Made by a program: the position numbers and the translations under genes. A model generated the notes under the pieces. It searched no databases and had not been told where the DNA came from. It saw nothing but the letters and a program-made list of their open reading frames with translations. Shown here one piece after another: positions 38,567 to 42,322 of a DNA stretch of 42,322 nucleotides. Numbering within the stretch: the first letter of the stretch is position 1; each line of letters starts with the position of its first letter. Source of the DNA: Myxococcales bacterium (lineage in GTDB: Bacteria > UBA10199 > 2-02-FULL-44-16 > JAAZCA01). The stretch spans positions 1-42,322 of the forward strand of contig JAAZCA010000020.1 of the NCBI GenBank assembly GCA_012513515.1, written 5' to 3'.

Positions 38567-38642
38567 CACCCCACTCTCTGGAGCCCCACTCCGACAGTTG
38601 CCATTCACTAGTTACGAGTCACCAGTTACGGATTTTCCGACC

Positions 38643-38685
38643 ATCGAACTATCGAACTATTGAACTATCGCACCATTGAACTATT
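38643..38685. repeat. Short tandem repeat of GAACTAT units
   Basis: Repeated units of the type ATCGAACT or ATTGAACT, with one degenerate copy (ATCGCACC). Located between lolA and the RNase P terminator. The preceding bases also carry CACTAGTTACGAGTCACCAGTTAC, so the whole stretch 38,590-38,685 looks like simple-repeat debris. Confidence 0.7.
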
Positions 38686-39323: not shown

Positions 39324-39339
39324 GTTCCTACAGTTCATC

Positions 39340-39374
39340 TTAATCCTTAATCCTTAATTCTTAATTCTTAATCC
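39340..39374. repeat. Five tandem 7-bp repeats TTAATYC
   Basis: Five exact-length copies: TTAATCC, TTAATCC, TTAATTC, TTAATTC, TTAATCC. They lie just after the rnhA stop, in the non-coding gap 39,178-39,384, which otherwise shows only the two repeats listed before. Confidence 0.9.
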
Positions 39375-39384
39375 TTATTTCGCC

Positions 39385-41002: not shown

Positions 41003-42031
41003 CTACCCTACAGAACGCCGAATCATAAACTCCACATCCTCATTAGCCCCTTTCCAGCTGATATCGATATCCGGATGATTCTCGGCAAAAACCCTAAAAA
41101 CCTCATCCACAAAGCCCTGCCCGACGGTTCGCACCCCTGTGAAATCCAGCTCTATCCTGCGGAAGCTTTCCATGGAATGCAGGAGGCGCTTGGCCTGAGA
41201 CCTTGAAATATAGCTGTCGCCGGAATCAAAAAGCCTGACGCTGATACTGCTTTTGTCGAAGGTAAAATCCTCCCCGGTGTACTTTCTGAAGACATCGGCA
41301 AGCTTCCTCGACGATGGAAGATCCAGCTCGAAATAGACCGAAGTCCCCTTTTTCTTCCGCGCCCCCTCTACAAAGAGATCGTCAATACGACCATCCACTA
41401 TAAGGCGCTTGCCGTTGCTCGAAAGAACGAATCTGTCAACGGCCCTGGAGGTAAAAAATATTCCCTCTCCCGAATGTCTATCTGGCGCGGTGGTCTGCTT
41501 GCCTTTGAGCAGTTCCCCTACCGCATCCATAATTCCGGGGAGACCTTTCTTCGCACGGATATTCTCGAATGCGCCGATGCCTCTGTCATTGATCTCGACA
41601 CAGACCCCCAGCTCGCCAATTCGCATAACGACATCTATGAATTTGCTTCCGGAATGATCAATGGCGTTATTTAACATCTCGGTGAAGGCATAGCGAAGGA
41701 TGTCGAGCTCATCCTGCGCAAGATTTTTCAGGGGCGATTCTTTTAAGGCCTCCTCGAACGCGGAGTCTTCAAGCAGCCCCAACGCCTTGAATCTTTTCTT
41801 GAATTCAACCTGCTTCCCTGAAAACTCATCGATCCGCTTCGGATCATTTAGCAGGTAAAAGCTATTTTGCCTGCTCCCGCCGCGCCTTATTATTTTCCCC
41901 TCGCGCATTAAATCTTTCAGATGCCTGGCGATGGCCTGGCGGCTTATGCCGAGCTTAGAAACGAGATCGGAGTTTCGCAAAACCCCTTTTTTGGCGATCA
42001 TCTTCAATATGGCGTCTTTATTTTTGATCAT
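41003..42031 (-). CDS. HTH-GHKL ATPase-DUF4325 regulator
   Basis: A 342-residue single-chain regulator. Residues 1-60 are a winged HTH of the DeoR/MarR type (LVSKLGISRQAIARHLKDLM). Residues about 105-250 are a GHKL (histidine-kinase-like) ATPase with N-box EMLNNAIDHS (118-127), DRGIGAF (149-155) and SGEGIFFTSR (187-196). Residues about 260-342 are a DUF4325 (STAS-like) domain. No phospho-accepting His is seen, so it probably switches by ATP rather than by phosphotransfer. The start at 42,031 is chosen over 42,064. Neither has a ribosome site, and both sit in the repeat array, which suggests autoregulation. Confidence 0.88.
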   Translation of the reverse strand: MIKNKDAILKMIAKKGVLRNSDLVSKLGISRQAIARHLKDLMREGKIIRRGGSRQNSFYLLNDPKRIDEFSGKQVEFKKRFKALGLLEDSAFEEALKESPLKNLAQDELDILRYAFTEMLNNAIDHSGSKFIDVVMRIGELGVCVEINDRGIGAFENIRAKKGLPGIMDAVGELLKGKQTTAPDRHSGEGIFFTSRAVDRFVLSSNGKRLIVDGRIDDLFVEGARKKKGTSVYFELDLPSSRKLADVFRKYTGEDFTFDKSSISVRLFDSGDSYISRSQAKRLLHSMESFRRIELDFTGVRTVGQGFVDEVFRVFAENHPDIDISWKGANEDVEFMIRRSVG

Positions 42032-42104
42032 GACAACATAATGACAACACAATTTTTGAATCATGTCAACATATTGTCAACATAAAATTTGAATCATGTA
42101 AACA
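42030..42104 (-). promoter_or_regulatory. Operator array: five 9-bp boxes at 11/22/11/22-bp spacing
   Basis: Plus-strand boxes at 42,030 (ATGACAACA), 42,041 (ATGACAACA), 42,063 (ATGTCAACA), 42,074 (TTGTCAACA) and 42,096 (ATGTAAACA) follow one consensus, written TGTTGWCAT on the coding (minus) strand. Start-to-start distances are 11, 22, 11 and 22 bp, so all face the same side of the helix. TTGACA boxes within the array suggest overlap with a -35 element. The boxes cover the start of the regulator gene, which favours autoregulation. Confidence 0.8.
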
Positions 42105-42322
42105 TGCCTCTATGCAACCTGCTTGTAGCGCTCCACGGCGGCTGATTTCGCGTTAAATTTGAAATGGTTATAAAATTATTGATCTTTTTTTCCAAATTGT
42201 GTTAGAAGGCGCAACTTCTTGCGGGACGATCGATCTTTAAAATTTAGATTTTGCGTATCGGTTTTCCTCCATTTTCCATTTTCTCATGCCATTTTCTAAA
42301 TTTGCGGCACTGGAAAATAGAG
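42105..42322. other. Window-edge intergenic stretch, no gene seen
   Basis: 218 bases with no open reading frame of note, no tRNA and no clear terminator. AT-rich with a run of T residues near 42,185. It is upstream of the regulator and may hold further promoter sequence. Confidence 0.4.

Follow-up and report, generated by a model that had tools for sequence, protein, structure and literature searches.

The gene for a helix-turn-helix (HTH) protein with GHKL ATPase and DUF4325 domains is preceded, in the 42,322-nucleotide stretch of DNA analysed here (the window), by five short boxes that lie on one face of the helix and run into its start codon. Helically spaced boxes of this kind are conserved upstream of most of some 100 homologous genes from many bacterial phyla, and in the genomes searched box pairs lie almost exclusively at members of this protein family. 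The array is probably the operator of a narrow-range autorepressor, for which we infer binding, repression, cooperativity and control by ATP or another ligand.

Five phased boxes run into the start codon of a presumed regulator gene

Direct reading of the coding (minus) strand confirmed that the array is real, with boxes starting 11, 22, 11 and 22 bp apart, as a preliminary description of this DNA had stated, and with core hexamers at -71, -49, -38, -16 and -5 relative to the start codon. The features of the locus are as follows.

41003..42031, minus strand: presumed regulator gene, 342 aa (Pfam, alignment, AlphaFold model, Foldseek)
42020..42105, minus strand: whole array, 33-bp tandem period, 2.6 copies, TRF score 116
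42096..42104, minus strand: box 1, TGTTTACAT, one mismatch
42074..42082, minus strand: box 2, TGTTGACAA, one mismatch; holds the predicted -35 hexamer TTGACA
42063..42071, minus strand: box 3, TGTTGACAT
42041..42049, minus strand: box 4, TGTTGTCAT
42030..42038, minus strand: box 5, TGTTGTCAT; ends in the AT with which the start codon ATG (42031-42029) begins
42052..42080, minus strand: predicted sigma-70-type promoter within the array (consensus scan only; 10/12 matches)

Five copies of TGTTGWCAT had been described; all five boxes are present, but the motif is exact in three and carries one mismatch in each of the other two. The proposed 33-bp period was recovered both by TRF, with the top score in the window, and as two occurrences of TTTGAATCATGT (42055-42066 and 42088-42099) placed 33 bp apart. 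None of 5000 dinucleotide shuffles attained the counts of repeats observed at lags of 11 or 33. The contig extends only 218 bp beyond the upstream edge of the array. Two short tandem repeats, built of a 16-bp unit and of CTTAATC units, were also noted in the window at 38640-38684 and 39338-39381.

The regulator gene has two in-frame ATGs, at 42064 and 42031, and alignment of homologues supports 42031 as the likely start codon; in the nearest homologues, the same ATG is directly abutted by the last box. Because ATG 42031 is backed by the homologues, the array can be placed directly before the gene and running into its start codon, in agreement with its original assignment to the start of a gene for an HTH protein. 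Since the last box enters the start codon and leaves no space for the usual Shine-Dalgarno sequence, the mRNA leader is likely to be very short. By consensus scan, the predicted promoter consists of a -35 TTGACA (42080-42075) in box 2, a 17-bp spacer and a -10 AAAAAT (42057-42052) between boxes 3 and 4.

With box 1 upstream of this -35 and boxes 4 and 5 downstream of the -10, the protein might instead regulate its gene positively or act as a two-state switch, activating from the upstream boxes and repressing from the downstream ones, and SARP proteins do activate via 11-bp repeats. However, boxes in the window themselves make up the -35 and extend into the start codon, a position at which bound protein would block, although this promoter is a consensus match only; we regard this arrangement as unlikely.

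The protein combines DNA-binding, GHKL and STAS-like domains

Pfam matches to HTH_24, HATPase_c_2 and DUF4325 divide the regulator into a winged HTH (residues ~7-47), a GHKL ATPase (102-209) and a STAS-like domain (DUF4325, 279-333). An AlphaFold model (mean pLDDT 83.9) has SpoIIAB anti-sigma factors as its best structural neighbours in Foldseek, and the earlier designation as an ATPase-type regulator with an HTH is borne out by all three approaches. The nucleotide-binding motifs of the GHKL domain (E118, N121, N122, D149xGxG153 and G188xG190) are invariant in 37 aligned sequences. Among PDB sequences there was no full-length match, the HTH part weakly matching AspA and MarR-type proteins, and PADLOC matched the HTH only, again weakly. 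Serine or threonine is found in 0-4% of 82 sequences at the position equated, from predicted secondary structure, with the canonical phospho-serine at the start of the second STAS helix; residues 304-306 are G-Q-(A/G).

At least 568 relatives were confirmed in one scan of a genome collection, from which 80 were retained. Their hosts include Patescibacteria, Omnitrophota and deltaproteobacterial lineages, and a sample of 60 genomes related to that of the window gave a family match in 15. No neighbouring gene recurs across 82 family loci, and a search for carriage by phages or plasmids gave no match. In the literature covered, with most subscription papers outside it, DUF4325 and the family receive passing mentions only. 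A genome of the same class as the window's carries what appears, as a match only, to be a degraded gene copy with internal stops (L100, 1501-1788). One family member lies on a contig labelled Nanoarchaeota (L080) and groups with Patescibacteria sequences, possibly reflecting a binning error.

Helical spacing of boxes is conserved upstream of homologues

Conservation was assessed by a motif-free test, in which an 8-mer recurring with 7/8 identical positions was sought at each lag from 4 to 69 in 82 non-redundant upstream regions. A lag of 11 bp was found in 47 of the 82 (shuffle mean 4.7, z 20), with further peaks at 12 (25 regions), 21 and 22 (19 each), 32 (24), 33 (29), 44 (12) and 65 (9); no other lag between 4 and 69 gave a comparable peak. 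One or more of the lags 11, 12, 21, 22, 32 and 33 occurred in 69/82 family upstreams, as against 73/271 upstreams of neighbouring genes from the same loci (p 1e-20). The homologue upstreams yielded the box profile wGTTKACAAYTa, and the distances between boxes on the same strand cluster at 11/12, 20-22, 32-34 and 43-45, equivalent to one to four helical turns. Eight of the 82 homologues have no box by this profile.

The layout of the window is shared most closely by relatives that, together with it, represent one class, three families and five genera, with protein identities near 50%. Box positions are identical at L091 (-71, -49, -38, -16, -5) and nearly so at L090 (-69, -48, -37, -16, -5), L092 (-70, -49, -38, -16, -5) and L099 (-72, -49, -38, -16, -5), so that the five positions stay within 2 bp while the sequence between the boxes differs. 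At L093, a locus from a fourth family, four boxes with the same spacings are shifted by three bases. Among 15 further upstreams from the phylum of L034, spacings of 11, 22 and 33 bp were present in nine, seven and five, respectively. The comparison proposed with the preliminary description, a search for the same boxes and spacing before homologous genes, was therefore positive in the 82 upstreams, against the neighbouring-gene controls, in the closer relatives and in the 15 new upstreams.

The 33-bp period and the 79% identity of its copies would also be expected if a promoter segment had simply been duplicated in tandem and the repeats were neutral. Five positions kept at ~50% protein identity, though the inter-box sequence differs, and the same helical lags in distant relatives make this extremely improbable.

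Box pairs are nearly confined to genes of the family

A pattern search of the window's genome found zero-mismatch box pairs solely at this locus, while three 2-mismatch pair matches elsewhere are not array-like. Across 22 genomes with TTKACAAT boxes, contig positions place the 0-mismatch pairs at family genes; one extra 0-mismatch pair precedes a second paralogue, 36% identical, which lies beside a ribonucleotide-reductase-like gene at L138 (1551-2072). For 20 genomes of the group with GTTGACAAC boxes, the sites found marked either the promoter of the gene itself or, in several genomes, its 3´ end. A wider regulon was considered and rejected, the window's own genome and 42 homologue genomes having given family genes, their 3´ ends and a few unrelated 1-mismatch matches, in pattern searches that single or degenerate sites could escape.

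The restriction of perfect pairs to the gene's own locus in the window genome fits autoregulation, and the autoregulatory reading first suggested for this array is supported by it as well as by the conserved boxes before homologues. These patterns make it very probable that the protein regulates the gene that encodes it.

Box type follows the recognition helix

The type of box varies with the sequence of the recognition helix. GTTGACAAC boxes accompany an SRAY helix, TTKACAAT boxes an SRQY helix and CTTACAATT boxes an SRQT helix, and the window has GTTGWCAT or GTTGATA boxes with SRQA plus a residue inserted before the invariant tyrosine. In the GTTGACAAC clade the layout consists of direct pairs that face an inverted pair or a single box about three turns on, and the boxes surround a TTGACA and TATA-like promoter. 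A table of residue 32 against box position 10 gave p 1e-8, but there are only three supported independent pairs on the tree (not significant), and because of this the association cannot be separated from descent on the sequences at hand. A proof of coevolution by independent contrasts was accordingly dropped, the independent changes being too few. The association persists within CPR hosts alone (p 0.001), and therefore box type appears to track the protein rather than the host group.

These data also bear on whether the HTH protein is the binder at all, or whether the boxes serve another, unlinked regulator of the family. In favour of the latter, the covariation is phylogenetically confounded. 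An unlinked regulator would nevertheless have to be co-inherited over many phyla, perfect pairs lie at the family genes, and box type tracks protein clade across host phyla as well as within CPR hosts, all of which leaves this explanation quite unlikely.

Working model and comparison with known systems

In an autorepressor operator, the winged HTH of the HTH-GHKL-DUF4325 protein would bind the near-palindromic box core with its one-base centre, which reads GTTG-W-CAAC in many homologues and TTK-A-CAAT or GTTG-W-CAT in others. With boxes separated by one, two or three turns of the helix, several protomers would be aligned along the same side of the DNA, and cooperative binding would then be possible. 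As the boxes in the window supply the -35, lie on either side of the -10 and run as far as the start codon, their occupancy would exclude RNA polymerase. The GHKL and STAS-like domains presumably alter oligomerisation upon binding of ATP or a ligand, which would release the operator.

Regulation of itself alone is unusual for a protein unless its ATPase-STAS half has another job, and this counts against a narrow autorepressor. The tested genomes have hardly any other sites, and this raises the question of the role of that half, which could be tested through comparison with CapK/CapS. An uncharacterised protein family gains a concrete, testable candidate DNA target, and the family-wide helical phasing, with its match of box to helix, provides a natural series in which the cooperative recognition of DNA can be studied.

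CapK and CapS combine HTH, STAS and GHKL modules in an autoregulatory repressor circuit made of two proteins, an HTH-STAS-GHKL kinase and a STAS-wHTH repressor, beside immune operons (EMBO J 2026, PMC13373217). In systems of this type the two genes are adjacent and stand upstream of the immune operon, and single-stranded DNA is the activating signal. The family described here shares this set of modules, with the GHKL nucleotide-binding motifs intact. CapS binds the ´narrow palindrome´ TTAAaTTAA cooperatively, its 4-bp half-sites being one base apart (PMC13373217), and many family boxes, GTTG-W-CAAC, likewise have 4-bp half-sites about one base. Unlike CapK/CapS, however, the family has a single protein ordered wHTH-GHKL-DUF4325 with multi-box, helically phased arrays, is encoded by a single gene without recurrent neighbours (82 loci) rather than beside immune operons, and lacks serine or threonine at the phospho-acceptor position of the STAS substrate. 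We do not claim membership of CapK/CapS, because the protein is one chain and has G-Q-(A/G) at that position. A similar comparison holds for SpoIIAB/RsbW and SpoIIAA/RsbV: among solved structures SpoIIAB best matches the GHKL domain, and a STAS-like domain is present, but in contrast to SpoIIAB/RsbW the family protein is one chain fused to a DNA-binding domain with a dedicated DNA array, and in contrast to SpoIIAA/RsbV its STAS-like helix opens with G-Q-(A/G) instead of a phosphorylatable serine.

For the spacing itself, SARP operators such as that of PimR, in which direct repeats of 7 bp recur every 11 bp on one helix face, typically at the -35, provide a precedent (PMC3367932), and the statement that no operator of this layout had been described was therefore too strong. 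The likeness lies in short repeats at 11 bp or multiples on one helix face. The window array differs in having both 11- and 22-bp steps, in reaching the start codon and in sitting at the regulator's own gene; moreover, SARP sites serve SARP activators, whereas the window protein (HTH_24, HATPase_c_2, DUF4325) is not a SARP. An 11/22/11/22 array ending in a start codon, and the family that owns it, were not found in the literature searched.

Second arrays at the 3´ end and solo arrays

Among the 36 genes of the clade that lacks Gln32, seven have a further array no more than 70 bp from the stop codon; the corresponding figures are none of 45 for genes with Gln32 and 4 of 3591 for background windows of 100 bp. 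Extension of the scan past the 70-bp span revealed further 3´ arrays. In many members of the GTTGACAAC clade, a second array overlaps the stop codon or comes immediately after it; these are the genes at L011, L017, L022, L023, L028, L033 and L036 and, in addition, those at L016, L031, L051 and L076.

Some Syntrophaceae-type draft genomes in which no homologue was found retain a single array, with the gene missing at the locus; coordinates are given in the orientation of the unit:

L193, 4241-4293: solo array
L194, 4050-4102: solo array
L195, 4028-4082: solo array
L196, 402-454: solo array
L197, 4036-4089: solo array

One solo-array genome (G120) has a distant homologue elsewhere. Several solo arrays lie downstream of mnmG/gidA, like the full unit, and several are chimeric, with the outside flank or left portion of a 5´ array fused to sequence from inside a 3´ array. 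Because such chimeras match the expectation for deletion between direct repeats, loss of the gene by recombination is suggested, and the solo array would apparently be the scar. Since solo arrays persist in genomes without a found homologue, the presence of an array is not by itself proof that a genome contains the regulator.

An array-gene-array unit might also be a mobile element with the arrays as its ends. DNA homology among Syntrophaceae loci often covers just array-gene-array, the 3´ arrays resemble the 5´ arrays, and genomes without the gene hold solo arrays. Yet in many of these genomes the unit and several solo arrays are found downstream of mnmG/gidA, a pattern suggestive of vertical inheritance, and the solo arrays combine a 5´ flank with a 3´ interior, the product that deletion between direct repeats would yield. 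In addition, Pfam finds no recombinase domain in the regulator, and a 3´ array is missing from both the window gene and the Gln32 clade. Given the synteny with mnmG/gidA and the chimeric solo arrays, we judge a mobile element very unlikely.

Beyond the autorepressor operator, we tentatively raise a broader possibility, which we hold with rather low confidence, that the family is a widespread single-protein kinase-STAS-repressor switch. One chain would unite the sensor ATPase with its STAS partner and the DNA reader and have its own helically phased operator as sole genomic target, and the regulator-plus-operator cassette would have spread over many phyla, the duplicated arrays of one clade permitting loss by recombination.

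At L051 (2882-2964), the 3´ tail of the gene is found a second time in front of the 5´ array, a trace of an earlier tandem duplication.
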